Source: a virus
Length of the DNA stretch: 40,958 nt
Reading direction: 5' to 3' (one strand)
IMG/VR virus record: IMGVR_UViG_3300031851_000052
Coordinates: 1 to 40,958 of that record
The notes below the pieces were generated by a model that was given only the letters and a program-made list of their open reading frames with translations, did not search any database and was not told where the DNA came from. The position numbers and the translations under genes are program-made. Positions 23,334 to 40,958 of this stretch are shown piece after piece (within the stretch, counting starts at the first letter, position 1; each line of letters starts with the position of its first letter).

Positions 23334-25124
23334 TTAATCTATCCTAAACTTAAAAGCTTTCTTGTATTCCAAGATTTCGCCATTTACATAAGTGGCGAAC
23401 TTGATACCGTACATGTATCCAGTCTCTAGCATCGACATATCAAAGTCAAAATAGTTTCCGTCCTTATCATAAGAGAGCAGCGTGTGGTTTGAATTGTTGT
23501 TGGCTGTGCCAATTCCGTAATCAATTACCACCTCGTCATCTGTAGCTCTAAAAATTTGATAATAAACATTGTCCACTATTTCATTCTCGATTGCTTTACT
23601 AGCTACTGTATAAATAGTTGGTGACCAATCTTTTAATCGGCTGTATAGCCTAAATCGTGGTTTCTCGGTTTTTGTATAAGAAGGTTTAAGATTCGTGATA
23701 GAAAACACATACTCTTTAGACTTTATAGTTAATACTGGCTTAGGCTGATTTACAGTAATCTCTGAGGACTGGACATCTATAATGCTCGCCGTACCGTCTG
23801 TTGATAGGTACCAGCGCTCGTATAAGGATGTCTCAGTTGTATCGACAGCGAATTGAGCCCTATAGACGCCTGTTGAAATCTTTGTTGCTTCTACAAAATT
23901 GACTGGTCCGTCGAGAGGAACTACTGTCGCAAATGTGGACTCTTTATAGAGGGAGAAGTAAATCTCCTGTCCTGCCGTAAATGTCAAGTCAGTAAGAACA
24001 CCATCGACAAGATTGTATAAGTAGACATTTTGATTGTTGTCGGCTACATAAGATTTTTTGGCACTAAGCTTGGCTCTGTCGTCTTTAATCGCACCGTTCC
24101 ATCGAGCTTCGAGGTTGGGGCGCTTGAAAAAGAACTCTGAACTTCTAGCAAAGAATTTTTTAGTATAATAAGATTTTGCAGTGCTCTCAGCCTGTATCTT
24201 AACCATCACACCTTTATTATTAGCAGTTGATGTCGCCTCGTCACGAAGAGCAGAGCCATCCCAGATTGCAGCCACAACATATGAGGTGATATCTAAAATT
24301 AAATCCTCCTGACCTGATGTGAAGGCTACCGTTCCCATCGTGCCAGAAAACGGTCCCGTGTCGTCAAGACTGTTATTCGGCGTCCCCCATGGAGTGTAAT
24401 CGTTTCCGCCAGTCATGTAGTGGTTGGCAGTTGTAATATTTCCAGTCGTGTTTGCAATGGCATATGTGTAATTGCCAACAGTGCCAGCTACTTTAGAAGT
24501 AATCGTGAGTGCATCGGACCCGCTGTTCGCAACGGTGACCTTTGTAGAACTACCCAGTGCGGTCACGATAGCATCTCTCGTCAGAGTTGCAGAGGCAGCG
24601 GCAGTGACCGTTGTCGTTTCATCATCAATTTTAACAGTGAATGTAGATAGATTTGTTGGGCTTGTTGCAACTGTTATTGTACCAGTAGCTGTGCCTGTAG
24701 CTGTATCAATCCTGTTTGTCCAGTTAACTGAACCAGCATCACTATATGTCGACATGTCAACTCCACTACCTTCAGTGAATGCTTCGGCAAGCTGGTGCAC
24801 TGTCAAAGAGAAGTTGGCTGGTAATGTTTCTGGGTGTACCGCATTGAACAGTCGTAAATAATATTTTGGAGCATTAGATGCATTAGGCTTTGGAACTTCG
24901 CCAACAGCAATTGCTGTTCGGATGCTGAGCAAATCGGGGCGTATAACAATGCGGGCAGCCTCTTTTGACGCTGCGCCTGTTGCTGATACCTGACCATGCA
25001 AGCTGAACACTTCCAGTGAATCTGCTGCGCCCATGTTTCCAAGGCTTCCTCTTTCGTTTAGAGCTTCTTTATAAGCATTTGTAATGGTCGCATCTGCTTC
25101 CACTGTCCATCTTTTAATACCCAT
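23334..25124 (-). CDS. Baseplate-associated structural protein, probable DNRLRE-like beta fold with an inserted module
   Basis: ATG at 25124 overlaps the upstream stop as TAATG, with GGGGTGAT upstream. The 596-residue product begins MGIKRWTVEADATITNAY. Residues 85-140 and 235-320 together look like one DNRLRE-type (carbohydrate-binding-module-like) beta sandwich: YYLRLFNAV, AEAFTEGSGVDMSTYSD and VNWTN, then GGNDYTPWG, EDLILDITSYVVAAIW and GVMVKI, followed by FFFKRPNLEARWNG. Between them (about 140-233) lies a Thr/Ala/Val-rich, low-complexity beta segment that interrupts the fold. The C-terminal half (360-596) has further beta domains, with NVYLYNLVDG, YFSLYK and a final YMYGIKFATYVNGEI. The gene lies between the gp6-like gene and the giant tail gene, so a baseplate-periphery or fibre-attachment role is likely. 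The fold call is from memory of sequence patterns. Function is inferred. Confidence 0.85.
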   Translation of the reverse strand: MGIKRWTVEADATITNAYKEALNERGSLGNMGAADSLEVFSLHGQVSATGAASKEAARIVIRPDLLSIRTAIAVGEVPKPNASNAPKYYLRLFNAVHPETLPANFSLTVHQLAEAFTEGSGVDMSTYSDAGSVNWTNRIDTATGTATGTITVATSPTNLSTFTVKIDDETTTVTAAASATLTRDAIVTALGSSTKVTVANSGSDALTITSKVAGTVGNYTYAIANTTGNITTANHYMTGGNDYTPWGTPNNSLDDTGPFSGTMGTVAFTSGQEDLILDITSYVVAAIWDGSALRDEATSTANNKGVMVKIQAESTAKSYYTKKFFARSSEFFFKRPNLEARWNGAIKDDRAKLSAKKSYVADNNQNVYLYNLVDGVLTDLTFTAGQEIYFSLYKESTFATVVPLDGPVNFVEATKISTGVYRAQFAVDTTETSLYERWYLSTDGTASIIDVQSSEITVNQPKPVLTIKSKEYVFSITNLKPSYTKTEKPRFRLYSRLKDWSPTIYTVASKAIENEIVDNVYYQIFRATDDEVVIDYGIGTANNNSNHTLLSYDKDGNYFDFDMSMLETGYMYGIKFATYVNGEILEYKKAFKFRID

Positions 25125-26959
25125 TATATAATCACCCCACTGATATCGTTGGCAGGAAATTTAATCTCATAAATAACATTCAAAGGCATTTGAATATATC
25201 TTCCGTCTGCCGATGTTGATTGGTCCAAATCAAATCTAATATTAGAATAAGTTCGACCTCCAGATGAACCATGCTTTTGTGTAATCCTAACATCGGTCAC
25301 ATCGACAAGCCCATCAACCTTTTTAAGTTGCTTATAAACATCCGTGATAAAGAAGGGCTCACCGATATCTGGTGCTCGCCTAAAGTATTGAATCAACTTT
25401 TGCTTTGCCTGTTCAAGCACATCATATTTTGATGCGTCCAGTGAACCTACAGCTACAAAGTCAATGGAAAGATTAATAATCTTTGCGTCCATGATATCAA
25501 TAGTGTCGTTAATCATCTTGTTGCCTGAAAGCCATGTTTTAATATTCTTCTTGACAACATCGTTTGTTCGTGTTAGACTTCCATCTCTATCCTCTGATGT
25601 TACATACAGATTCAAATTTCTCTTCAGTGAATCACTGTCTCTTAAAATCTTGCAACGCTTTACAGCGCCAAACTTGGTTGGCATTTGATAGACCACTGAT
25701 TCATAATCCTGTTGAGTTACTGCTCTTTTTTGTGTTGCAAATGTGTCATAAATTCTATGCTTCAGTTCTGTCGCATCGGGCAATTGCACATCACCAGTGA
25801 TGGGCTCTTCATTATCAACCTCTAGAGACCCAATGACAGCCTTTGTGGTTGAAGTGTTGAGCACCGTAATGTCGTCAAACTCAAGCCTAGACTTTGAAAC
25901 GCTATTCAACTGACCGACCCTACAGTTTACATTACTTGAGTTGTTGAGTCTATATTGCACAGTCAAAGTTGTATTGGAAGGAGCGACGCCGAACTTATCA
26001 CTTTCAATAAGTCGAGTTGGGTCGAAGGATAGGCTTTCGATATAATTCTTGCCATGTACCTTAAGTATAACATTTGACGGGTCTGCAATCATGTCTTCAG
26101 GAAGGGAAACATCAGAGCTTGCGCCGAACTGTACGCTAGTCTTTCTTCTGTCTCTCGATACAACAAACCTTCTGGGCACCATGAAAGGCTTTAATATTTC
26201 AGCCGCTTGGTCGCCAGTTGTGTATCCAACGCTCAGTGTTTTATCTCTATTCGTTATACCTTTATATAAAATGTTCTGGGAGAGATAATCTACCTCGTAG
26301 TACTCATTGCCCTCCAAGTCAATTACTGACATAACTTCTGAAATGTCCAGACCATTTAGAGATAATTTTCTAAACTTCGTGAAGTCGCCAATTTTGTGGG
26401 TCTCAACATAATATCTACCAGAAATAACTTGACCGAAGCCCTTTACAGCGAAAGCGGTCGGAACACCAGTAGCTTCGTTTTGTCTTGCGACTCGAATCTC
26501 GTTGTTTGGGTTTCCAAAGTGTACATCTTCCATTAAGATAAAATCCGCTCCAGTGGAAGCCTTAAATGTGCTTCCCTTCTTTAGGACGGGCATATATCTT
26601 TTGTCTGGTCCAAGACCAGTTGTTAGTGCGGGAATTAAAACATAGAATGTGGCAATACCGTGAGAGGATGGGGCGGTGGTGAACTTATATCCCAGTTGCT
26701 TGCCCAGCTTAATGATATTATTATATTCTACCGCAGTGTCGAGGAATGTCTCGTTTGCTTGATAGTCAAGGTAGAATGAAAGAATGTCGCCAATGTAGGC
26801 TACAGTATCAACCATGAGTGACCCAAAGCTCGACTCATTAAAGTCCCTGTAGGTGTCTGGATAATATCTTTTGATGTAATCAATCAAATCTTCCTTGATT
26901 GAATCGAACTCTCGGCTCGTATATTTAATCGATACGGCTCTTGCCTTCTTATTGCTCAT
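25124..26959 (-). CDS. Baseplate wedge protein, gp6-like (baseplate J family)
   Basis: 611 residues, close to T4 gp6 (660). ATG at 26959 has GAGGG at 26969-26973. The N-terminus carries the features of gp6-type wedge proteins: YTSREFDSIKEDLIDYIK, FGSLMVDTVAYIGDILSFYL and a helical DYQANETFLDTA segment (residues about 12-75). The C-terminal third contains the baseplate-J core: ATQKRAVTQQDYESVVYQMP (about 405-430), a KCKILRDSD-like strand, and FFITDVYKQLKKVDGLVDV (about 555-575). In contractile tails gp6 forms dimers that make the inner baseplate ring and bind gp25 and gp7. It follows the gp25-like gene, as in T4 and as W then J in P2. The identification as a gp6/gpJ homologue is confident. Its partner proteins are inferred from context. 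Confidence 0.93.
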   Translation of the reverse strand: MSNKKARAVSIKYTSREFDSIKEDLIDYIKRYYPDTYRDFNESSFGSLMVDTVAYIGDILSFYLDYQANETFLDTAVEYNNIIKLGKQLGYKFTTAPSSHGIATFYVLIPALTTGLGPDKRYMPVLKKGSTFKASTGADFILMEDVHFGNPNNEIRVARQNEATGVPTAFAVKGFGQVISGRYYVETHKIGDFTKFRKLSLNGLDISEVMSVIDLEGNEYYEVDYLSQNILYKGITNRDKTLSVGYTTGDQAAEILKPFMVPRRFVVSRDRRKTSVQFGASSDVSLPEDMIADPSNVILKVHGKNYIESLSFDPTRLIESDKFGVAPSNTTLTVQYRLNNSSNVNCRVGQLNSVSKSRLEFDDITVLNTSTTKAVIGSLEVDNEEPITGDVQLPDATELKHRIYDTFATQKRAVTQQDYESVVYQMPTKFGAVKRCKILRDSDSLKRNLNLYVTSEDRDGSLTRTNDVVKKNIKTWLSGNKMINDTIDIMDAKIINLSIDFVAVGSLDASKYDVLEQAKQKLIQYFRRAPDIGEPFFITDVYKQLKKVDGLVDVTDVRITQKHGSSGGRTYSNIRFDLDQSTSADGRYIQMPLNVIYEIKFPANDISGVII

Positions 26960-26986: not shown

Positions 26987-27379
26987 TTAGTTGCCACTAA
27001 CATATAATTCAAGCCCATCCACACTATCGAGCGGCTTAATTCTATAAGTCAAGTTTATGTAAAGCACATTCTGTACAACTGCTGGATTGCTGTCTTTTGA
27101 ATTAAAATCGATGTCGAGTATTTCAACAAAGCCAAGATACTTTTTAACCTGGGTGCGTATCTTAGATTCTATCTCTCCGTAGACCATGGGGTGGTTTTGT
27201 TCAAATAGATAATTCCTAAGTCCAACGCCAAAGAGTGGGTCCATAATTCTTTCACCTGGAGCCGTCAGCACAATCATTTTCATGTTCTGCTTAACCATCT
27301 CTTTGTAAGTTTTATTTAATCCATAACCGTCGCTTGGGTCCAAAGACAGCGGCAGTTTCGGTGACAATCCTTCAGGCAT
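26987..27379 (-). CDS. Baseplate wedge protein, gp25-like (GPW/gp25 family)
   Basis: 130 residues, matching T4 gp25 (132). ATG at 27379 has a strong AAGGAGGG Shine-Dalgarno. Family hallmarks are visible: NKTYKEMVKQNMKMIVLTAP, then the signature GERIMDPLFGVGLRNYLFEQN (about residues 53-73), followed by EIESKIRTQVKKYL and a final strand NVLYINLTYRIKP. The EPR-like core that contacts the sheath and gp6 corresponds to the GER...P.FG.GLR block. In contractile injection machines this protein joins the wedge to the first sheath ring. It stands immediately before the gp6-like gene, the order seen across such systems. Older annotations call this family lysozyme-like, but there is no catalytic evidence and I do not claim enzyme activity. 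Confidence 0.95.
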   Translation of the reverse strand: MPEGLSPKLPLSLDPSDGYGLNKTYKEMVKQNMKMIVLTAPGERIMDPLFGVGLRNYLFEQNHPMVYGEIESKIRTQVKKYLGFVEILDIDFNSKDSNPAVVQNVLYINLTYRIKPLDSVDGLELYVSGN

Positions 27380-30400: not shown

Positions 30401-33400
30401 CAGCCTTCTCCGTCATATAATCAATTGAATCGTGTGATAAGTCAACGAGACCTTTTTGTTTTTGAGACGAACGGGCACTGTTGACATCTGGAGATGTGCT
30501 TGAAGGCTCTTCACTACCCTTCTGACAGAACACGGGTGGCGGGGCAAAGTCATCAGAGAGTGGTCCTTTATTTACAAAGTCAGCCAGCACCTTTGCCGCA
30601 TTTGCTTTTCTATCTCTCGCTCGATTTAATTGGTCTGAGACTTGTTCTGGCGTCATGTCGCCCCTGTCTCTTAATAAATTACTTCTTAATTCATCTGTCT
30701 CTGAAGCCGCAGGATTACACAGTGTATCCCCGACAATGTAATTTGGAGCAGCAGGAGTTGGAGACTCAAGGATTCTACAGATAGATGGGTCTATCATAGA
30801 GCCAAATGATTTAAAGAATCTCACAACTTGAGATTTTCTTGTTATATTAATGTTGGGGTAGCCCGTAGTCAACAAGCTTCTCACCATTGTGAGAGTTTTT
30901 CTTGTTGCTGTGCCGTTAATTAAAGTGCATAGCTCAACGGGAGTCAAGAGAAGAGATACATCGTCTAACATTGAAACAACTTCTGCCCTCTTTGATGCTG
31001 CGTCTGGAGCATTAAAGTCCTCGAATCCAGCCGTATCCATAAGGGCTGCGAGAGCCTCGGCGGGTCCAGCTTGTCCAGGTGAGCCGTCGGGAATACTGTC
31101 TTCTAACATTTCATTTAAATTAGATTTACCAAATTGTTCTCCTTCACCTGTAGCATCATTACATGAGTCGGTCAAGTTCTGTAAAACATTTTTCACCATT
31201 GCGACAAATATTTCGTTTAACAGGCTCGTCAAAGCACCCTCGATTGCATCGCCCATGGATGCCATAATATCTTGAGTGGGGAGAGAATCAGGAAAATTCA
31301 TTGCCAGGGATGGAGGCATCTTAGGCTTTGTTTGAGAGAACGCATCTGTATTTAACTGAGGTGTGGATGGGAAATCCTTTAACTTGTCCAATTTATCTTG
31401 AGCCATGTCTAAATCTTTTGTTAGAGAGTCATCAATACCAAGACTTTTCGCCTTATCAGATATTGAACTCAAGCCAGGTATTTTATCTGCACCTAAATTA
31501 TCCAGTACCTCTGTTGCGCCTGAAATGCCAAGCTCTTTTATTTTTAAAGACAGTTCTCCAACACTGTGGCTTGATAATCCAAGCGAATCAAAGGTTAAGC
31601 CACTTAACCCAAGTTGTTCCATGTTTAATTCATTAAAACCAATGTCTGAAACAGTTGTTGAGCAAAGTCCAAGTTGGTTCATAGAATAATTTTCAGGACC
31701 GCCGTTGTTTAGGATTTCTTGTGCGTCTATTCCAACACCCTCTGTTATTCTCTGTCCCGTTTTTACAATTACAACAGCGCCATCAACTGGGTCCACCTCG
31801 ATGTAGTCTTTTGTAGAAATGCCCGAAATATCCTTTATTTTAATATCGCACATTCCGAGGGAATCCACGGTCAGTTCTGTGAGACCAAGTTCGTTGAATG
31901 AATGTTTTCCAACGCCGAGCGTATCTATATTCAACGATGTTAAGCTTTCAAGGTCGAAATTTACATCGGAAGGGATACTAGATTTTAACTCGTCATATCC
32001 TATCTCAACATCTGCGATGTCGTTTAGACCCACTCCTGAGCCGAAATCACCTGGGCTGGATTGGACTGCTGAACGAATTGATTCGTCTAAGTCTTGAACA
32101 TTAGACAGGTCTGATGTAATTTGACCCATACACTGACTTATAAGGTCCGCAATATTTACCTTGTCAAGGACTGCCTCGAAAGCGTCGTCGACCGTGCTAA
32201 TACTGTTAATTGTTTTCTGAATTCCTTCACATGATGCTGTGAAGTCTCCAACAAAATCGTAGGAATCTACTCTATCACGATACAAATTAAATTTAGTTTC
32301 AAGGTCACCTACATCTATATCTTCTGAGATTTTATCTCTATATGTCTTAATAGGAGAATCATTATATGCTGTTGACATCTTTTTAGAAAGCTTTTCCTTG
32401 CTGCTTTCAACGGTTCCAATATTTTCGTGAAAATTGCGGCTGCCTTTCTTCTTGCTTGGATTGACTTTCGGCGGCTCTGGAAGCGTATATGCAAACAAGA
32501 AATCTGTCCACGGCAAAGTATCAGGAGTGATGTTTTTAATTTCATTTAGGTTCCACAAATATCCCTGCGTTCTTTGTGAGTCAAACGGGACTGAATCTGA
32601 GAGTTGTTCAACTCCTTTAGAGAAGACAACCGTGTTTCCCGATTCTCTGAGTAGGGACACATAAATGAGAGTAAGCGTAGAATCCCACCCTAGCTCAAGT
32701 GTCTCGTTCATTTCAAATGGGCTTGATGTGAGTCCGTTATCGTCCATCAGTTGTTGCAGGGGTGGAACGATGGCTTCAATATTTTCTGCCTCGAAGGTGG
32801 CATCGTAATCTGTAACAGTGCCTTTAAATCGAGAAATTTGCTTACCGTACTCGGTCAACAGGGCTGATGTCTTTTTAATATCTTGTTTAAAATTTAAAGT
32901 ATTATAAGAAGCTTTGAAAACCACATCTTCTAAAACATCCCACCGAGTTGTGGCGATGATACCATCGACCTCTATAATATTTTTATCATTAGCGATTGCT
33001 GATAAGTATCGCATTGGAAGAGTTACTAAAACTTTCAAATAAGTATTGGGGCGAAGGTCAACAAAATATTCCTCTGCTGCACAGAACTGGAATATTTCTT
33101 TATTTTCTACTTTGCTAATATAGTTCGCAACTGTTTCGTCATCGTGTGGTTTTCCATTATCACGGAGAATGATTTTTAACCCTTCTGTGCAACCAATTTT
33201 TAATCTATTATCAATATCGTCTGCGCCCGCAGATTGATATTGTTTTAATTCAACACAGACCTTATATTTTGCGTCGTAAGGGTCAAAGTGGCTTTTGTTA
33301 GGTTCAAGAGATGTCCAATCAATAATTGGTGGAACTCTTCTATTGCCGCCGACGACGCTGGCAGGTGAAAAAGCTGTTGGTGCAGTGTCGGCTGTACCAG

Positions 33401-33710
33401 TCAGCTTTCTAATGTTTTCCCTATGAACATATAATTTTGTATTGCCGTAGTCCTTCCCAACAACCAGAACATGTACCCATGCACAAGCATAACCAGCGCC
33501 CTCATCGAGAACAATAAGTTTCGTACCGTTTGATAAGACATCAACAATATCGCCCTTCAACTTCTCATCTTTATTGCCAACGGGGCTGGTCTTGAAGTAT
33601 GATGGTCTATTACGAAGGGCGACTTTTTTTATTGAGTTAATAGAGTGCGTTGCCGATTCAGGGAACGACGGAAACCTCTCCATTGGGCTGGTTTTCTTTT
33701 TTCTTGACAT
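27432..33710 (-). CDS. Very large baseplate/virion protein with SH3-like N-terminus and decapeptide repeats
   Basis: 2092 residues. I use ATG 33710, because AAGG lies at 33721-33724; the longer frame starts at a TTG two codons earlier. The stop of the preceding gene is 2 bp away. Residues 30-105 resemble a bacterial SH3 domain (KKVALRNRPSYF, NGTKLIVLDEGAGY, WVHVLVVG, LYVHRENIRKL). About 590-630 and 676-730 carry two runs of a ten-residue repeat of the type FDSLGLxxxT, separated by an interruption with KDYIEVDPVDGAVVIV. Then come long acidic helical sections, including many short Asp/Ser/Pro stretches (800-1250). The C-terminal part has AHQ-free globular sequence and a Gly/Pro-rich tail, LGPPIGPTGFAYHGLGLGMW. 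It lies between the needle-like gene and gp25, so I infer a baseplate hub-wedge connector or scaffold. No enzyme motif is seen. Family name unknown to me. Confidence 0.85.
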   Translation of the reverse strand: MSRKKKTSPMERFPSFPESATHSINSIKKVALRNRPSYFKTSPVGNKDEKLKGDIVDVLSNGTKLIVLDEGAGYACAWVHVLVVGKDYGNTKLYVHRENIRKLTGTADTAPTAFSPASVVGGNRRVPPIIDWTSLEPNKSHFDPYDAKYKVCVELKQYQSAGADDIDNRLKIGCTEGLKIILRDNGKPHDDETVANYISKVENKEIFQFCAAEEYFVDLRPNTYLKVLVTLPMRYLSAIANDKNIIEVDGIIATTRWDVLEDVVFKASYNTLNFKQDIKKTSALLTEYGKQISRFKGTVTDYDATFEAENIEAIVPPLQQLMDDNGLTSSPFEMNETLELGWDSTLTLIYVSLLRESGNTVVFSKGVEQLSDSVPFDSQRTQGYLWNLNEIKNITPDTLPWTDFLFAYTLPEPPKVNPSKKKGSRNFHENIGTVESSKEKLSKKMSTAYNDSPIKTYRDKISEDIDVGDLETKFNLYRDRVDSYDFVGDFTASCEGIQKTINSISTVDDAFEAVLDKVNIADLISQCMGQITSDLSNVQDLDESIRSAVQSSPGDFGSGVGLNDIADVEIGYDELKSSIPSDVNFDLESLTSLNIDTLGVGKHSFNELGLTELTVDSLGMCDIKIKDISGISTKDYIEVDPVDGAVVIVKTGQRITEGVGIDAQEILNNGGPENYSMNQLGLCSTTVSDIGFNELNMEQLGLSGLTFDSLGLSSHSVGELSLKIKELGISGATEVLDNLGADKIPGLSSISDKAKSLGIDDSLTKDLDMAQDKLDKLKDFPSTPQLNTDAFSQTKPKMPPSLAMNFPDSLPTQDIMASMGDAIEGALTSLLNEIFVAMVKNVLQNLTDSCNDATGEGEQFGKSNLNEMLEDSIPDGSPGQAGPAEALAALMDTAGFEDFNAPDAASKRAEVVSMLDDVSLLLTPVELCTLINGTATRKTLTMVRSLLTTGYPNINITRKSQVVRFFKSFGSMIDPSICRILESPTPAAPNYIVGDTLCNPAASETDELRSNLLRDRGDMTPEQVSDQLNRARDRKANAAKVLADFVNKGPLSDDFAPPPVFCQKGSEEPSSTSPDVNSARSSQKQKGLVDLSHDSIDYMTEKAVDLMFEPVYMAFSSDILAYPSAFIKAPEEEKSITLPADTDNNRPEMKIDIQGTPKIMPSLKSTLSGVETNPNILFGDIEPIPATLDTTTDYNQGATGIEIPLPTDAIDLSFIKNLGGVDIEEAIEEIESSSVSWRFGYIEPKVAPDFDISTTPLPYDIYLNEQSKAARDDKIVFNYSTSDLYGETLANTLSQEKYNFLSSPDAVNLRRHKFASLLTNNVSSFADSFVLEDSEFYEMAKGYYDKINQDVLAYISDLVTKSPFFKSITVAAPAISDEGDADLPETVKPVLTYLNLDPEPTLEQKLEGCDPHLLDLKNKKAELKENMKSERCIDLSAPTDGSPADSMSDQEKEMIKLCVSTIVRSYMIDFYMRGIFSNSIFAGDSTPDELYLSSVVNFILQDLDDYDRPNMVDVDGKMTPVGSYGTYRDDFLEALIEVSDMSEQESQVDSGDISSPLTTDSLGDDALRSLIKEQYTSVYSQMRERINSLMVSDIESRFVLEYLPILKYDGNYYESTRMTPLFTSDPPTTNKFANGNLYLEPYYYIEHHGDPSDSASFNYQEDNPSTFSTVGVVNRTELDTIIDRMKMVDNDPDKKLVDFKEPSNGFFKSISRGLRLMYRPPADRTITNEGRKITYSQGRPPSINQQWKSMWDDFTPLIGNPNFKQVAIEKCFVQFEVVSMSTSNTGAEHTLEYDAKMTYPVMDGREIISEFELNQLVNGAQEREIETRYHLLSNHEDFRAFVDFMFPIKRYKTLMEIFCQQATSYDTAVSGAMSATKDELRRLFFAINSRGDYKQSDPSMDEVGGPAGLDKMMKNEFGLLDMPASPNSWNYNLPVGWGKSAKGLGFESVAKATGEAVLKIFKNHVEKTDPNISIAKKLSFASKMANVNIPTTAWSFMLMPANVIPGALGPPIGPTGFAYHGLGLGMWGRAEGASGENAEDENTQLEAAGFKSTASCKPEFDYDTMYKAVTQIKPPAAVIASGLRFSIVTEEE
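31521..31946 (-). repeat. Decapeptide repeats inside the 2092-residue baseplate protein
   Basis: On the protein level a ten-residue unit recurs: LNIDTLGVGK, FNELGLTELT, VDSLGMCDIK, then after an interruption MNQLGLCSTT, VSDIGFNELN, MEQLGLSGLT, FDSLGLSSHS and VGELSLKIKE. The consensus is hydrophobic, any, acidic/polar, Leu/Ile, Gly, Leu/Phe, three variable, Thr-like. The DNA itself is not strongly repeated, so this is an old, diverged array rather than a recent expansion. Regular spacing suggests a solenoid or stacked-turn structure. Confidence 0.6.
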
Positions 33711-33712
33711 TA

Positions 33713-34642
33713 TCAATTAACCTTGTTATACTTACTGTTTATATACTTGTTACCTGCTTTTGATAAGTAGGTTTTCTTGAAGGTTTTTAAGTTTGCTTTA
33801 TGTTTAGCTAAATCAATTTTAGATGTCAAAGTTAGATTTTTTACAGTCGAGAGACCAGAGGAAACACACTGCGGCGACAACAGAGTCGTACCGAGGATAG
33901 GAATCAAATGGGTGTGTGTCGCAAGAGCGATGTTCATTTGTATCTGTTGCATTAAAAAATAATCAACTATTCCATTCAACTTATCGATGTGAAATACAAC
34001 TCGACTCAGTGCTTCCGCTAGGTTGTCACCCTTAGACAATGGTTGAAGGTCTGTGTCGTCATTACCAGCTATCAAGTCAATTCCTGATACTGCCTTTACA
34101 TCGGCTCCCTGAGAATTCTTTTGGTCTGTCCTTGTTACCAGCTTGATACCTTCTCGTGCAACAAGTCTAATCCCATCAGCCTTCAATCCAATAGCTGATT
34201 TTGTTTTTGAATTTCCAACATTGCCATCTGCCAATTCGAAGTTCTCATCAATATCGGTTTTCTGGCTTATATAAATTCTAGCTGCATCAACTTTAAAATT
34301 TGGGTCTGCAAAGATGGTGTTGCCCTCTTCATCTTGCGAGAGAGGCTGAGATGCCATTCTTCCCACAACAATGTCGACCATTGATGCCTGAGTGTCTCCT
34401 GAACCGCCATAGCCACTTAGTCGTGAAGCTGGTCTATCTCTTCCAAGAACGATAAAGGAATTATTTTGCCCCCTGTATACCGTTTCACATTCAGCCTCCA
34501 CATATTCTGGTACTGGTTCTGGTAGCTGGTTTCCCGCAATGCCTCGCTTAGACAACTTTAAACTTGAAGCGGAAGCTTCCAGTAATTCACTATTCCTTTT
34601 AAAGAAACCCTCTAGGTCAATTGATTTTTTCATTGAAGACAT
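33713..34642 (-). CDS. Probable central-spike needle protein (beta-helical), 309 residues
   Basis: ATG at 34642 has AGGAG at 34654-34658. The next Met is too far from it. The N-terminal 100 residues contain a strand-rich segment with NNSFIVLGRDRPASR and VDIVVGRMAS. Residues 115-195 have short regular strands, VDAARIYISQKTD, SAIGLKADGIRLVAREGIKL and SGIDLIAG, the pattern seen in triple-stranded beta-helices of gp5/VgrG-type spikes. Near 243-245 is an HTH (His-Thr-His) motif, like the HxH that binds iron at the tips of some phage spikes. The last 60 residues are Lys/Thr rich. It directly follows the OB-fold peptidase gene, so I infer that it forms the needle part of the central spike. An alternative is a baseplate hub cap. 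The beta-helix call is by pattern, not by structure. Confidence 0.75.
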   Translation of the reverse strand: MSSMKKSIDLEGFFKRNSELLEASASSLKLSKRGIAGNQLPEPVPEYVEAECETVYRGQNNSFIVLGRDRPASRLSGYGGSGDTQASMVDIVVGRMASQPLSQDEEGNTIFADPNFKVDAARIYISQKTDIDENFELADGNVGNSKTKSAIGLKADGIRLVAREGIKLVTRTDQKNSQGADVKAVSGIDLIAGNDDTDLQPLSKGDNLAEALSRVVFHIDKLNGIVDYFLMQQIQMNIALATHTHLIPILGTTLLSPQCVSSGLSTVKNLTLTSKIDLAKHKANLKTFKKTYLSKAGNKYINSKYNKVN

Positions 34643-34666: not shown

Positions 34667-37552
34667 TTATTTTCCAAAATACCCACCACGCCAAACTCTT
34701 CCAGCCTCTCTCCACGGAGGGTCGGTTGAGGGATTTGCAAATGTTTCAAGGACCATTCCAAAAGTCGTTGAACCAGTGGTTAAGCCCGCATTGTTTCTAA
34801 AGTCAAAGTGCCAAGCTTCGGATGCTCCACCTGCGGCAGACTTTTGATACCAACTCTTGCCAACGGGACCGATACCTTCAAGACCATATGCCATCATAAT
34901 TTTTGTAATATTTACAAAATATCCAGTCATTGGTTCGACGACGGGCGGTTGACCATTTTTTTCTCTAATAGCGTTTAATGTTTTATGTTCTACTTCAAAC
35001 TTGACCTGCCCTTTATCAACAACTCCAGAAGTTTTAGAGGATTTAGCCCACACAATAAATCTCTTCTTACCTGGAACAGAGGTATCATGCTCTACTATAA
35101 AAATATCCCTCTCAGGTTTTTTTGCTGTGTGTGGAAGTAACAAATCGACTGCCAAGCCCGTATAGTGGAATGAGGTGGCGCTACGACCTTTCGTCACCTT
35201 AGTCGATAACAGCCTGCGAGCGCCAGAGGAAGAAATTTGCCCTCCGAGTTCTTTAACAATATTTCTGACCTCAACAAGGTTTGCAGCCACATCTTCTCTC
35301 ATTCTCGGATTTTTAGAGTACCATGGACCAGACTTGCCTCCGTCTTGTATATCAAAATCAACAGGAGATTTTATAACCTTCATCTTTGGATTCGTCCTTA
35401 CCTCACCAAGTGTTCCAATAAATGGAACATTTCCGATTGGTGTGCCAGCCCTATCTGCACCAATAGTAAATGGCTGACCTGGAGTATAACTTCCTCCACC
35501 ACATGTAGCAACAGGTACAGGTGCTGGTGAAGGTGTGGTGTTTTGAGCCGCTGTTGATTCGGTTGCAGGTGTTGATGCTGGTGTCTTTGCTTCTTCTAGA
35601 GACTTCTCAATTGCCCGCTTGCCTGCTGCGGTTGCAGCCATCTGTGCGGAAGAAGAATCTGCTGGGAGTGCCATGATTTCATCTTTTTCTTCTTGTGTTG
35701 TAGACTCAGTAAGTGCTTGTGCTCTTGTTATATTCTCAACAGTAATTTTCGGTTCTAATTTTGTTCCAACAGCATCTGCTTTCTTTTCAGTCGTGGTACC
35801 ATCTTCGGATACTGTCTCTGTTGCAACACCGTCTTCTGTTGCTGCCTTAGCAAGGCTTGGTGCGCCGAAGTATTCTTCCCCAGCAAGCTTTTTGCAAAGC
35901 TCTGGTGTCCAAGGCTCATTGGGGCGTCCGCCCAATTGTTGCCACAAATTAGTCCATTCTGGATATTGCCAAACCCATATCTTTCTACCTAAAGATTTAG
36001 ATTTTGCAAGATATTCATGTACAGGTTTTGAGCCAGTGCCGCCGTGGTCGCCACCAGACTCTGCAATTCTAAGGTTGCCATCGGGGTCTGCAAACAGAAC
36101 CAAAATATGTGTAATGACAAGAGTATTGCTGCACCATGAGGGGCGCTCAGCTTCTGTTTTGGACAATGTTAAAACATCTCCTGGCATCAGGTGCACATTG
36201 CTCTCACCCACATCAAAATAATTCGTTGGTTTGGCTGTCTCTATACCGCCAAGTTCTCCTGCTCGAACTTTTTTTAAATAATCATTATAATATTCCTTGT
36301 TAGAAACTGCATTCTCTTCCAGTCGTCCATCAAGGGTCGCTTTTACCAGCGCACAAGGGTCAACCCAGTCCCACCCGTCTTTGTGTCGCTGTGGTGTTCT
36401 CTTTGGTTTCGTCCAGTTTCCATACCAAGGGCGGACACCTTTACCAATCCAGCTTCTATAATTAGTTTTTTCGCCTGCGTCAATTTCATAGCCGCCAGCT
36501 TCTTTAGTCATCGAGGCATCAATCATGAATTCCATGACGCTTCTCACACCATTTGTGAACCCACTGCAATCAATGCCGCCTTTTACAGGGTCTAGGGTTT
36601 TACCACCAAGTTTATATCCTCTATCGGCTTGGTCCTCACAAGCTATTCGTAGTGCCGTCAAGTACTTTGCTAAATTATTATTAATTGACTGACAAGAACC
36701 TAACGCCAGCTTTCCGCTAGCTGCTCGTCCGCTACCGCCTGCGCTCACATACGCTTTAACTTTGTCAAAGTTCGATGCTGAAGTGGACCATGATTTGTTG
36801 GTGCCCATTGGGTCTTGTTTATTTCTCTTAGAGGTTTGTTTAGGTGAAAGATACATTCCGTTCTTCCACTTTATACTAGGGTCTGTTATTGGAACATTGG
36901 GTGCAGTCAAGGAACCCCCAGAAGCTCCAGATAGTCCTGAGCCTCCACCGCAGTCTCCAAACGCATCAGAGCCCGATGCTCCGTCACCAGAGCCACCAGA
37001 GCCGCCTGATGAACTGTCGGGTGGTGGAAAGACGGGACCGATATAAGTTGGGTCGTCGAAGTTCTCTTTAGAACCATAATCAACCCAAACCAAGTCTCCT
37101 GGTCCAGCACCTTCGACATTTGAATCGTGAGCGATAAATGTCGGGTACATATTGATTATTTTTTGATGGTCGCCCTTTTCGTTTGGGTCTTGGGCATATT
37201 TTTTTGGCGAAGGTAATGTAACATGAATTTCTGGTATTCTTACTTTATACCTTTTTAATTTCTTTGGTGCCGTGAAGAGCCCCCCAAACATACCCTGTTT
37301 ACCAAACACGGTAGAAAGCCAATTACCAGGAGCAGGCTCGTTCTGACTCATCTCTTCTTCTACACGCAAAACAATGCCTTTGTAAGGACCAGTCCCCTTC
37401 GTTGCATCGGGTGTATAGTGAGTTATTGCGACCTCTTTCAATACATCCAAAATGGACATACTACTTGGGTCTGCACTCTTTGCTGCTCTTGGTTTTTGTA
37501 CAGGGTTTAAGTCACCAAAGGCAAATTCTTTGGGCTCTTCGAAATCAGCCAT
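34667..37552 (-). CDS. Baseplate hub/spike protein with OB fold, NlpC/P60 and M15 peptidase domains
   Basis: 961 residues. I use ATG 37552, which has GGAGG at 37562-37566; the ATG at 37579 has no Shine-Dalgarno. The start overlaps the previous stop by 8 bp (ATGGCTGA). Order of parts: 55-176 an OB-fold-like region (YKGIVLRVEEE, KRYKVRIPEIHVTLP, GAGPGDLVWVDYGS) similar in kind to the gp5 N-terminal domain; 179-214 a Gly/Ser-rich linker; about 260-540 an NlpC/P60-type cysteine peptidase with GGIDCSGFTNGV (Cys329) and His482 in VITHILVLF; 565-690 an Ala/Thr/Glu/Pro-rich linker; 720-961 an M15-type zinc D,D-carboxypeptidase or endopeptidase domain with SFHYTGLAVD (His796, Asp803) and EAWHFDF (Glu912, His915). 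NlpC/P60 and M15 enzymes both cut peptide links in peptidoglycan. I infer a tail-tip protein that locally opens the cell wall during injection. Activity is untested. Confidence 0.88.
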   Translation of the reverse strand: MADFEEPKEFAFGDLNPVQKPRAAKSADPSSMSILDVLKEVAITHYTPDATKGTGPYKGIVLRVEEEMSQNEPAPGNWLSTVFGKQGMFGGLFTAPKKLKRYKVRIPEIHVTLPSPKKYAQDPNEKGDHQKIINMYPTFIAHDSNVEGAGPGDLVWVDYGSKENFDDPTYIGPVFPPPDSSSGGSGGSGDGASGSDAFGDCGGGSGLSGASGGSLTAPNVPITDPSIKWKNGMYLSPKQTSKRNKQDPMGTNKSWSTSASNFDKVKAYVSAGGSGRAASGKLALGSCQSINNNLAKYLTALRIACEDQADRGYKLGGKTLDPVKGGIDCSGFTNGVRSVMEFMIDASMTKEAGGYEIDAGEKTNYRSWIGKGVRPWYGNWTKPKRTPQRHKDGWDWVDPCALVKATLDGRLEENAVSNKEYYNDYLKKVRAGELGGIETAKPTNYFDVGESNVHLMPGDVLTLSKTEAERPSWCSNTLVITHILVLFADPDGNLRIAESGGDHGGTGSKPVHEYLAKSKSLGRKIWVWQYPEWTNLWQQLGGRPNEPWTPELCKKLAGEEYFGAPSLAKAATEDGVATETVSEDGTTTEKKADAVGTKLEPKITVENITRAQALTESTTQEEKDEIMALPADSSSAQMAATAAGKRAIEKSLEEAKTPASTPATESTAAQNTTPSPAPVPVATCGGGSYTPGQPFTIGADRAGTPIGNVPFIGTLGEVRTNPKMKVIKSPVDFDIQDGGKSGPWYSKNPRMREDVAANLVEVRNIVKELGGQISSSGARRLLSTKVTKGRSATSFHYTGLAVDLLLPHTAKKPERDIFIVEHDTSVPGKKRFIVWAKSSKTSGVVDKGQVKFEVEHKTLNAIREKNGQPPVVEPMTGYFVNITKIMMAYGLEGIGPVGKSWYQKSAAGGASEAWHFDFRNNAGLTTGSTTFGMVLETFANPSTDPPWREAGRVWRGGYFGK

Positions 37553-37886
37553 CGTCCCCTTCCTCCGAGCCGCTGTCATTTAGCATGTCGAATATCTTTT
37601 CCTTTTCAAGAGAAGATAGTTCATCGGAGGCGTTAGCTGTTTTTTTATGAAGCAGTGCCGTGAGTTTTACAAGCTGCTCGTTTGAGCGTTGTAGTGTCTC
37701 TACATATTTTGAAGCGATTAAGCCACACTGTTGAATTATAGTTATTGACCCGCCCTGAGATTTCATCTCTTGCACAAGGTCAGTTAGGAGTGTCGATGTA
37801 ATCGCCCTGTCGGCACGAATATTCGTCATCGTCTCCTTGAGCAATTCGTCTAGCTGCTCTTTTCCTGTTTTGCTATTGTTTGACAA
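37545..37886 (-). CDS. Small helical protein of unknown function, downstream of sigma factor
   Basis: 113 residues. The likely start is a TTG at 37886, because GGGAG at 37896-37900 lies 9 nt upstream; the first internal ATG (37829) has an AAGGAG only 3 nt away. This start overlaps the end of the sigma gene by 37 bp. The protein is mostly helical: KEQLDELLKETMTNIRADRA, then LLTDLVQEMKS, and SKYVETLQRSNEQLVKLTA, with a very acidic C-terminal tail (DSGSEEGDDG). No Cys pair, membrane segment or enzyme motif is visible. The size and its position after a gp55-like sigma factor recall T4 gp33 (112 residues), a late transcription co-activator, but I see no convincing sequence similarity. The acidic tail could instead mark a DNA-packaging or assembly protein. 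Function unknown. Confidence 0.75.
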   Translation of the reverse strand: MSNNSKTGKEQLDELLKETMTNIRADRAITSTLLTDLVQEMKSQGGSITIIQQCGLIASKYVETLQRSNEQLVKLTALLHKKTANASDELSSLEKEKIFDMLNDSGSEEGDDG

Positions 37887-38620
37887 TCAACTGTACTCCC
37901 GTCTGTGTGAGAGACAGCGCCTTCATCCCAATTGTTCTTGAAGACTCTGTATTTTTCTCTCAACTTATTGAGGTTGCTAACCACTTGCTTAGTATTAAGA
38001 CCAGTTAACTCTCTTAAGTACAAGTAAATAGCTTTCTTGTTGAAAATTTCGATGTCGTCTGGGTTCTCTAATAAGACTTTAACAGCCTTATACACTTTCT
38101 CCTCGGAAGGCTTCATAGGAAGCTCGCCCCACTTGGAGATTTCAGAATGTAACGCTGCTCTGAATTGAATTAGCTCAACCTGTTCCTCATAGGGATTCTT
38201 AGTTGAAAGATATTTTTGTTCAATTGACCGTGGCATCTGGTCAAAGGTTATTTCCCTTTGACGCTGGATTGCATGTTTCTTTACCTTGTGAATGAACCAA
38301 TTTTTTGTAATGACACTGAAGTAAGAGAATGCCTTGGAACCCTTTTCAGGATTAAATTTTTCTAAAACCGTAGTTAGCCAGATTTTGCATTCATCTTGCA
38401 AGTCTGCTATGTTTGGTAATGTAGTAAATTTATATGTATAGACAATCTTATCAACCAATTCACTCATGGCAGGTTGAATCAATTTTACATATAATTCTTC
38501 CCTCCTTGCCCTGTCACTAATTGTATTGTACTCAACAATGGCGTCTTCATGTAATTGTGTAAAATAATGTCTGCCACTTGACTTTCGTCCTCTGCGGCGC
38601 TTCTTCTTTTCTTCAGCCAT
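37850..38620 (-). CDS. Late-transcription sigma factor, gp55-like
   Basis: 256 residues from ATG 38620, which has AAGGA at 38626-38630; the longer frame would overlap the upstream gene and lacks a Shine-Dalgarno. The N-terminus is strongly basic (EEKKKRRRGRK). Residues 73-115 match the sigma region 2 core of gp55-type factors: ADLQDECKIWLTTVLEKFNP, then KAFSYFSVITKNWFIHKVKK, where gp55 proteins bind the core RNA polymerase clamp helices and recognise the -10 element. A later section (195-230: NKKAIYLYLRELTGLN, then SNLNKLREKY) looks like a winged or helix-turn-helix DNA-binding unit. T4 gp55 has 185 residues, so this protein carries about 70 extra, mainly C-terminal. It would direct host RNA polymerase to late promoters of the structural genes. 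The region-4-like reading of the C-terminus is an inference. Confidence 0.88.
   Translation of the reverse strand: MAEEKKKRRRGRKSSGRHYFTQLHEDAIVEYNTISDRARREELYVKLIQPAMSELVDKIVYTYKFTTLPNIADLQDECKIWLTTVLEKFNPEKGSKAFSYFSVITKNWFIHKVKKHAIQRQREITFDQMPRSIEQKYLSTKNPYEEQVELIQFRAALHSEISKWGELPMKPSEEKVYKAVKVLLENPDDIEIFNKKAIYLYLRELTGLNTKQVVSNLNKLREKYRVFKNNWDEGAVSHTDGSTVDCQTIAKQEKSS
37884..37900 (-). promoter_or_regulatory. Shine-Dalgarno that supports a TTG start
   Basis: GGGAG at 37896-37900 on the minus strand lies 9 nt before a TTG at 37884-37886. It sits inside the last codons of the sigma gene. No better-spaced element exists for the internal ATG at 37829, so translation of the 113-residue protein probably begins at this uncommon start and is coupled to the sigma gene. 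Confidence 0.55.
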
Positions 38621-38621
38621 T

Positions 38622-38900
38622 TTATTCCTTATCCTCACCTTGCGGCAAAAGTCTGTTTTTGATGTTTTCTGTTTGTGCGCCCAAGAGTTTGACATCATCA
38701 AGCAACTGCATTACAATTGGCTCGCCAGCAACCAAATCAGTATTTAGAATTTGTTCAAGGTTGCCTTGGAAAACATCAATGTTTTCAACAAGTTCCATGG
38801 TAGCATCTTCTAAATTTGACATTAGTCGTTTAATATACCAAACTAAAACTACATTAGTGCTCACAGATAGAGCAATTAAAATATATAACATTGGTTCCAT
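38622..38900 (-). CDS. Small single-pass membrane protein
   Basis: 92 residues. ATG at 38900 has an AGGGG-type Shine-Dalgarno. The gene ends 1 bp before the sigma gene. Residues 4-24 (MLYILIALSVSTNVVLVWYIK) form one hydrophobic transmembrane helix; the following positive KR suggests that the C-terminal part stays in the cytoplasm. Residues 28-90 are helical and acidic (NLEDATMELVENIDVFQGNL, then LLDDVKLLGAQTENIKNRL), possibly coiled coil. There is no lipobox, so it is not an obvious spanin lipoprotein. It lacks a typical holin pattern, though a pinholin-like or membrane-tethering role cannot be excluded. I do not recognise the family beyond a general resemblance to small membrane proteins of T4-like marine phages. 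Confidence 0.8.
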   Translation of the reverse strand: MEPMLYILIALSVSTNVVLVWYIKRLMSNLEDATMELVENIDVFQGNLEQILNTDLVAGEPIVMQLLDDVKLLGAQTENIKNRLLPQGEDKE

Positions 38901-39167: not shown

Positions 39168-39364
39168 TAATTCTCTTCTGTATCAACTGAAAGAGTTGGA
39201 GGGTTCGCTACTTGCAGTTCACCATTTTTGGTTCCCCAGCGCTTGGTCTCTTCACTCTTTTCGAACTCAAAGCCTTGTAGCACAGGGACAATATCTGTCT
39301 GTTCCATAAGGCTCTTTTGGAGTGCCATCATTAGTGCACCGATTGCTTGATTACTCAGTTTCAT
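39167..39364 (-). CDS. Small conserved phage protein, 65 residues, function unknown
   Basis: ATG at 39364 has an AAAGGAG Shine-Dalgarno with normal spacing, lying inside the last codons of the glycosyltransferase gene (14-bp overlap). The stop overlaps the next start as TAATG. Residues 1-30 form an amphipathic helix, MKLSNQAIGALMMALQKSLM, then EQTDIVPVLQGFEFEK. The last part is polar and ends in an NPPTL turn. No Cys, no membrane segment. I remember very similar short proteins in T4-like marine phages but know no role. The strong ribosome binding site and tight coupling argue that it is a real gene. Confidence 0.8.
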   Translation of the reverse strand: MKLSNQAIGALMMALQKSLMEQTDIVPVLQGFEFEKSEETKRWGTKNGELQVANPPTLSVDTEEN

Positions 39365-40514
39365 TTGTTTCTCCTTTATTGTTCAACACATTGTTGATAA
39401 CATTATTATATTCAGTTTTTATGGTTTTGTTAGCAAATTTCTTTGCTAAATGTGTTTTTAATTTCTTTGCGTTCTTATTGGCTGTAGTTGCATCACTGTA
39501 AAGTTGTCTCATTTGAGAACGCAAGCTTACAGTATCTGGATAACACCATTGAGTATTGCTCTCTAGGACGCCTTCCCAGACATGATATTCCTCTAAGTCA
39601 CGGACTTCATAATCAACCTCGTTGACTAGAACCTTGTCGCCCGAAGAAGTGAACTCAGTGAGCCCACCCCAGTTGGGAGCGATGATTGGCAGGCTGGAGC
39701 AAGCTGCCTCGAACGCAGGTAATCCAAACCCCTCTCCATGCGAAGTGGTAACATAGCCCATGACCTTTTCATTCTTGTACAATGAGAGCATTTGTTCATT
39801 GCTAAGGCTTCCATGTAATAAATATATTTTACATTTCATTGATGGAGGTGCCGCCCCTAAGAATGTCCTAATCCTGTCTAGCGTATAGTGTCTATCAATA
39901 GCGCTGCCACTCTTTAAAGAAAGTTTAAGAATCAAACCCACATCTTCGAGCATGAACTCTTGAACAAAAGATGAAATAGTTTGCTCAATGTTTTTCCTTG
40001 GGCTCCACTGTGCTACAGAGAGAAAGTTTTTTTCTGTTGTAAGTTCCAATCCAAGTGAGTCTGTAGATTTAGCATTTGCTGTGCGGAAGCCGTAACCAAT
40101 GACATGAATGTTATTTGATTCTTCAGTTCTAAGACTATCTGCGGAATGATTACTGGGAGTAATCACCGCATCCATCGAATTACATGCCGCCTTCCAACTT
40201 TCAGGGGCTGAGGTTGTTTCTACACCTGCTGTGATACCGATATTCTTTGACGCCAATTGTTGCCACTCGCTTGGTAATTGAACCTGAATGGAAAGGTCGA
40301 AGTCGGACACTTGCTCTTGGGCAGTTTTAATGATTAGAGAGTCAATCCACCTGCGCTCCTCTGTATCCTCATAGACCCATCCAGTCTCACCCCAACCAAC
40401 ACTGATTAAGTGTATGTCGTGGTCAGTATCCTTAAGTGCAGAAAGAACACTTCGACAGTGTTCTCCATAGCCAGATTGTGATAGGGCTGGACCTCTTACT
40501 ATAATTTTAGCCAT
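39351..40514 (-). CDS. GT-B glycosyltransferase (GT4-like)
   Basis: 387 residues from ATG 40514, which overlaps the upstream stop by 8 bp (ATGGCTAA) and has GAGG upstream. The N-terminal Rossmann half starts IIVRGPALSQSGYGEHCRSV, a glycine-rich acceptor-side loop, and includes PSNHSADSL near 120. The C-terminal half has FLSVAQWSPRKNIEQTISSF (164-183), where the Arg-Lys pair typically contacts the donor phosphates, and the E-x7-E type motif EGFGLPAFE (261-269). This pattern is that of retaining GT-B enzymes of the GT4 group using nucleotide sugars. There is no signal peptide, so it acts in the cytoplasm. The acceptor is unknown: virion proteins, modified DNA bases or host surface precursors are all possible. 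The adjacent upstream gene is another enzyme of the same type. Confidence 0.9.
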   Translation of the reverse strand: MAKIIVRGPALSQSGYGEHCRSVLSALKDTDHDIHLISVGWGETGWVYEDTEERRWIDSLIIKTAQEQVSDFDLSIQVQLPSEWQQLASKNIGITAGVETTSAPESWKAACNSMDAVITPSNHSADSLRTEESNNIHVIGYGFRTANAKSTDSLGLELTTEKNFLSVAQWSPRKNIEQTISSFVQEFMLEDVGLILKLSLKSGSAIDRHYTLDRIRTFLGAAPPSMKCKIYLLHGSLSNEQMLSLYKNEKVMGYVTTSHGEGFGLPAFEAACSSLPIIAPNWGGLTEFTSSGDKVLVNEVDYEVRDLEEYHVWEGVLESNTQWCYPDTVSLRSQMRQLYSDATTANKNAKKLKTHLAKKFANKTIKTEYNNVINNVLNNKGETNETE

Positions 40515-40958
40515 TGTTAACCTCGATTAATTCCCAATTTTTATGATTTCTAGTTTCCCATGAGCCTTGTGTTTTGTGAACCTCTTTAATAAGGTTGTTC
40601 CATTGGTTCCCATAAGATTCTAAAGAATAATTATTCTTAACATAATCTCTACCCTTTAGACCTAGGTTGGTACGCTCTTCCTTTGTCATATTATATACCT
40701 TTCTCATAGCTGCGAGAAAGTCTTCTTTTGAAATATGGTCTTCGTAAATATAAGGAACGACCTGAGAACCTAATAAAGTCTTTGCAGTTGGGTCAATTCC
40801 AACGCCAAAGGTTTCCTTACCATCTGTGACTTGCTCTTGAAGTCCACCAGTGTTTGAGACGATAATCGGTGTGCCACAAAATAAAGATTCTAATGTTGCC
40901 AAGCCGAAACCCTCAGCATCTGAAATATTAATTGTACAGTCAACCATATTGTATAACA
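40507..40958 (-). CDS. GT-B glycosyltransferase, partial (C-terminal end only)
   Basis: The frame is open through the right edge; codons upstream of the internal Met at 40947 read Leu-Tyr-Asn, continuing the family sequence, so this is the C-terminal 149 or so residues of a longer protein and the Met is not the start. The donor-binding half of a GT-B enzyme is visible: LYNMVDCTINISDAEGFGL, then LESLFCGTPIIVSNTGGLQE, with the paired Glu residues of the GT4 group. It ends KNWELIEVNNG and its stop overlaps the next glycosyltransferase start. Two related enzymes in tandem may act on the same glycan or on different acceptors. Substrate unknown. Confidence 0.88.
   Translation of the reverse strand, partial: LYNMVDCTINISDAEGFGLATLESLFCGTPIIVSNTGGLQEQVTDGKETFGVGIDPTAKTLLGSQVVPYIYEDHISKEDFLAAMRKVYNMTKEERTNLGLKGRDYVKNNYSLESYGNQWNNLIKEVHKTQGSWETRNHKNWELIEVNNG

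Follow-up and report, generated by a model that had tools for sequence, protein, structure and literature searches.

A putative tail-hub protein with NlpC/P60-like and M15-like peptidase domains in a large uncultured contractile-tailed phage

Enzymes carried at the tail tip help to decide the passage of a phage through the wall, and several arrangements of such enzymes have been described. T4 gp5 unites one lysozyme and a beta-helix in a single protein. Gp13 of phage phi29 carries a lysozyme domain, and the families represented in staphylococcal HydH5 are CHAP and LYZ2. The role of M23 in phi29 gp13 has been reported (PMC9662197), HydH5 is a virion-associated peptidoglycan hydrolase (PMC3150257), and NlpC/P60 proteins associated with the tails of jumbo phages are directed against peptidoglycan peptides (PMC7824862). 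A pairing of NlpC/P60 and M15 on a gp5-type hub, of which no description was found in searches of open-access papers, is suggested by the locus presented here. The window (the whole stretch of 40,958 nucleotides that was analysed) holds what we read, with a probability of roughly 0.78, as the hub gene of a large contractile-tailed uncultured phage, whose product brings two peptidases into use at entry and serves as an exchangeable port for such enzymes.

The hub gene and its neighbourhood

The hub gene is encoded by the minus strand; read from the plus strand, the frame at 34667-37552 is full of stops. Its open reading frame has two candidate starts, ATG 37579 (970 aa) and ATG 37552 (961 aa), and the 961-aa form is preferred because ATG 37552 is directly preceded by a strong ribosome-binding site (GGAGGAAGGGGACG-ATG). 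Residue numbers given below are those of the 961-aa form, and adding 9 converts them to the 970-aa form (P0001).

34667..37552, minus strand: hub gene, 961 aa, with OB-like hub, NlpC/P60-like and M15-like domains (open reading frame, ribosome-binding site)
37022..37519, minus strand: N-terminal domain resembling a gp5-type OB-like hub (profile; PDB profile match to phage Gp5)
36776..37021, minus strand: Gly/Ser-rich linker, about residues 187-268 in 970-aa numbering (sequence)
35879..36772, minus strand: NlpC/P60-like cysteine peptidase domain (profile, PGD motif, sub-threshold Pfam NLPC_P60)
36566..36568, minus strand: codon of putative catalytic Cys329 (Cys338 in the 970-aa form; motif alignment; Ala in the related locus L097)
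36107..36109, minus strand: codon of putative catalytic His482 (His491; invariant in alignment A6)
36059..36061, minus strand: codon of Glu498 (Glu507 in the 970-aa form), which may be the third catalytic residue (invariant in A6)
35396..35878, minus strand: long Ala/Thr/Pro-rich linker, about residues 568-728 in 970-aa numbering (sequence)
34670..35395, minus strand: M15-like zinc peptidase domain (model, PDB matches, invariant R, S, H, D, E, W, H)
35144..35167, minus strand: HxxGxAxD stretch within the zinc-ligand motif, from His796 to Asp803 (homologue alignment)
34808..34819, minus strand: ExWH motif, Glu912 to His915 (homologue alignment)

A sequence-only reading had placed a 961-aa hub/spike protein at 34667-37552, and these coordinates, the length and the start at ATG 37552 behind its ribosome-binding site are right. 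Cys329, His482, His796, Asp803, Glu912 and His915, which it had singled out, are found at these positions (the last four being His805, Asp812, Glu921 and His924 in the 970-aa form), and the Gly/Ser and Ala/Thr/Pro linkers are real, being directly visible in the sequence. These long linkers, which join the hub domain and the two enzyme domains, are probably flexible. Searches of Pfam, PHROG and PDB with the whole hub protein returned nothing useful; a Pfam match to 'Es2' was dismissed as a low-complexity match across the linker.

The genes around the hub gene include components of a contractile-tail baseplate.

33713..34642, minus strand: conserved 309-aa putative spike protein, directly downstream of the hub gene (alignment A1, synteny)
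26987..27379, minus strand: gp25 baseplate wedge (Pfam GPW_gp25, 2.4e-11)
25124..26959, minus strand: gp6-like baseplate wedge (PHROG baseplate wedge, 1.8e-21)
37850..38701, minus strand: gp55-like late sigma factor, upstream near the hub gene (PHROG late sigma factor, 2.7e-4)

Related viral loci were collected by a gp6 search (80) and a spike search (80), some of them sharing contigs, and in dozens of contigs the order hub, 309-aa gene, gene for about 2000 aa, gp25, gp6 is kept. Placement of the protein in the tail hub is supported by its baseplate gene surroundings (gp25, gp6, late sigma factor), by the hub-domain profile and by the match to Gp5. Of the 'hub/spike' label only the first half stands, the putative spike being encoded by the separate, adjacent 309-aa gene. 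Identification of the latter as a T4-gp5-like spike by sequence was tried and rejected, since the spike profile has no match to T4 gp5, so that the name rests on position and on a repeat-like, glycine-rich sequence. No host was found; one spike relative occurs in a short contig, possibly mis-binned, of an Actinomycetes MAG, and among 50,697 deposited phage records no relatives of the hub, the spike or the gene for 2094 aa were found.

Other genes of the region are of interest in their own right. The 2094-aa protein encoded between spike and gp25 (27432-33716, minus strand) has a sub-threshold bacterial SH3 match at residues 53-102 and, judging from this match, may possibly bind the wall. Downstream of the gp6 region, on the minus strand, lies a 4416-aa open reading frame with Laminin_G_3 lectin-like domains in two stretches (10079-23329), at whose place relatives often have a gene for about 2800 aa. 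A glycosyltransferase (39351-40514, minus strand) and a short glycosyltransferase-like open reading frame (40507-40947, minus strand) adjoin the tail cluster.

Domains of the hub protein

The profile of the N-terminal region suggests a hub domain of the gp5 type. The iterated profile (P0001 residues 1-200) matches about 89 open reading frames of the fetched loci, and its sole PDB profile match is to phage Gp5 (9vzk, E 0.009), located at the PGD.VWV.F motif. In an hhalign comparison with T4 gp5 the domain is co-linear, with similarity that is not significant. In some loci the domain of about 190-210 aa occurs without an attached enzyme (L021, L101, L107). A gp5-type C-terminal triple-stranded beta-helix is absent from the hub protein, whose C-terminal end is the M15 domain.

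At the C-terminal end lies a zinc peptidase domain of M15 type, with a predicted M15/hedgehog fold. The M15 signature SxHxxGxAxD plus ExWH, comprising zinc and catalytic residues, is present, and ten divergent homologues of the domain all retain Arg, Ser, His796, Ala, Asp803, Glu912, Trp and His915. An AlphaFold2 model (pLDDT 81, pTM 0.83) was compared with the PDB using Foldseek, and the matches were led by BaLdcB, Ply500 and VanY-type structures with probabilities of up to 0.98, at E-values all above 0.01 and low TM-scores (0.3-0.45); VanXY, VanX and hedgehog, the last of which has the fold in common, ranked lower. The profile of the region matches that of VanY-positive hub relatives with P = 0.0012, a score attained by 0/200 column shuffles, and the ExWH half of the profile aligns with ExWH (match attained by 2/100 shuffles). 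Pfam M15 models stay below threshold in the hub protein (Peptidase_M15_3, E 0.2), and the domain is therefore called sequence-divergent and M15-like.

For the middle domain, the evidence supports an NlpC/P60-like cysteine peptidase. The order of motifs typical of NlpC/P60 is found, with the catalytic Cys in [DN]CSGF at the start of a helix, followed by PGD and His. Alignment A6 comprises four sequences, of which three share about 30% identity with the window, and all keep GID[C/A]SGF, TH and Glu498 in this order, with MPGD ahead of the His. In most NlpC/P60 peptidases the third polar residue is His, Asn or Gln; here its place is taken by the invariant Glu498, a candidate catalytic residue, and Glu serves as a catalytic residue in CHAP enzymes. 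Against E. coli MepS, NlpC, MepH and YafL, the profile of the region gives P = 5e-7 in hhalign with the Cys aligned; this score was attained by 0/200 column shuffles, and cross-controls were near zero. A match in register is likewise seen for the PGD half (0/100 shuffles). Cys and PGD are separated by an insertion of about 90 residues, and the profile match spans short motifs around it. Pfam NLPC_P60 (PF00877) gives 12.1 to 17.4 bits in 3/4 members against a cut-off of 23, and for this reason the domain is filed as NlpC/P60-like rather than as a proven member. The model of this region, built on the four-sequence alignment, is of low confidence (pLDDT 42); its weak structure matches include several papain-like peptidases and are not counted as proof. 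Since structure prediction failed for want of homologues, the assignment rests on motifs and sequence profiles.

The two peptidase domains proposed beforehand, M15-type and NlpC/P60-type, are both supported by motifs and by profiles compared with shuffles. Of the checks suggested for them, Pfam profiles gave matches to both families yet none that attains the cut-off in the hub protein, and structure prediction upheld the M15 region and left the NlpC region at low confidence.

The triple architecture of hub, NlpC/P60-like and M15-like domains recurs in three other contigs (L162, L163, L097). In the NlpC/P60-like domain of L097, Ala stands in place of the catalytic Cys (GCT codon, separated from Cys by two base changes; site at 4252-4269 of that contig) within a conserved motif, which indicates that cysteine activity is not always kept. 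The hub may be real with only its M15 domain active, the NlpC/P60-like domain being degenerate or wall-binding. This would agree with the Ala of L097, where His and M15 motifs are intact, and with the large insertion and the poor model. However, the window, L162 and L163 all retain Cys, PGD, His and Glu, even though identity of L162 and L163 to the window is only about 30% here, and we regard this reading as unlikely. The dN/dS relative to the nearest relative (L173) is saturated.

Enzyme content of related loci

The two-enzyme hub is not an oddity of one phage, given the three other contigs and the fact that about a quarter of related loci are multi-enzyme. With our own profiles, at least two enzyme-type domains were found in 19/80 non-redundant loci with a complete hub, a count in which a few cases lie on two adjacent genes and a few include an unassigned barrel-like domain; the labels 'barrel' and 'LDT-like' are guesses from sequence and were not used as identified enzymes.

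In a set of some 80 related loci, a constant hub domain goes together with varying attached enzymes (M15, Amidase_2, M23, muramidase, GH24 lysozyme, SLT, GH19, CHAP, M74, GDSL). Among 79 hubs, Pfam detected VanY in 22, Amidase_2 in 15, M15_4 in 6, M23 in 5 and Muramidase in 4, followed by M15_3, CHAP and GH19 (2/79 each) and GDSL, M74 and M15_2 (1/79 each); GH24 lysozyme and SLT were added by single scans. At least 30 changes in enzyme content were counted on the spike tree among 59 loci, a rough figure from a quick tree with many open forks. The clearest case of enzyme exchange between sister phages is that of L094 and L098, which are 82% identical in the spike, 76% in the hub domain and 54% in the terminal amidase, and have unrelated middle domains. 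In L083 a T4-type Phage_lysozyme is found on the same hub domain, which ties the enzyme position to that of T4 gp5. At this locus (L083:2454-5974) the hub is followed by a separate gene with GDSL and M23. In another contig, three tandem hub-domain stretches lie upstream of one spike gene (L154:1467-5944), two of them in open reading frames with different enzymes (muramidase, Amidase_2).

That relatives keep the tail tip and swap in other wall-cutting enzymes suggests that the hub is a general plug-in site for such enzymes. It seems likely that the tail hub of this clade works as an evolutionary socket for unrelated peptidoglycan hydrolases, which are exchanged in whole modules, one at a time or in pairs, even among close relatives, with a set of cutters that may track host wall chemistry.

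The hub protein could instead be an endolysin or another lysis enzyme that merely lies among tail genes. Multi-enzyme endolysins exist, one of them with three enzymatic domains (PMC13237592), and an M15 domain of the hub subtype occurs outside the hub context behind peptidoglycan-binding-like sequence (L178:5281-6612), in a protein that is probably an endolysin. The conserved hub domain nevertheless also occurs in loci without an attached enzyme, and its place ahead of the spike-like gene and the baseplate wedge genes is fixed in dozens of contigs, which makes a lysis enzyme highly improbable. That both domains are non-peptidase folds with chance motifs, as the failure of either to attain a Pfam cut-off in the hub protein might suggest, is barely credible in view of the shuffled profiles for either domain, the invariant motifs and the M15 structure matches.

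Proposed mode of action and comparison with known systems

For the tail hub with two peptidases we infer the following scheme, which covers trimerisation, position within the virion, enzymatic activity, the bonds cut and the use made of them at entry. By analogy with T4 gp5, the hub domain would probably be trimeric and would place three copies of each enzyme, and both enzymes would sit behind the spike made by the next gene. NlpC/P60 enzymes typically cut D-Glu-mDAP or D-Ala-mDAP bonds, and phage M15 enzymes often L-Ala-D-Glu. After tail contraction and crossing of the outer membrane, the two enzymes may cut peptidoglycan peptide stems at different bonds and thereby clear a local passage for the tail tube; peptidases of different bond preference could allow faster opening of a cross-linked wall, or entry across wall types. 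A constant hub with varying, often paired enzymes represents a natural experiment on which bonds need cutting, and the hub family may serve as a marker in the search for new lysins among uncultured phages.

With T4 gp5, the protein described here shares its reading as a contractile-tail hub, a putative N-terminal OB-like domain and a wall-degrading enzyme behind it, but it has two peptidases, and its putative spike is encoded by the neighbouring gene. Phi29 gp13 likewise combines, within a single tail-tip protein, two distinct domains that cut peptidoglycan; unlike the present hub, it is a podovirus knob protein of a Gram-positive phage, combines a glycosidase with a peptidase and lacks an OB hub. 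HydH5 is similar in being virion-associated, as the hub presumably is, with two catalytic domains (PMC3150257), and differs in its families, its origin from a Gram-positive siphovirus and in not being an OB hub. The tail-associated proteins of jumbo phages share the NlpC/P60 family, and their description contains neither a hub with NlpC/P60 and M15 nor the term 'M15' (PMC7824862). A tail-tip hub with a peptidoglycan hydrolase is thus an already known kind of protein, of which a hub with exchangeable hydrolases that carries the pair of NlpC/P60-like and M15-like domains would be a variant.
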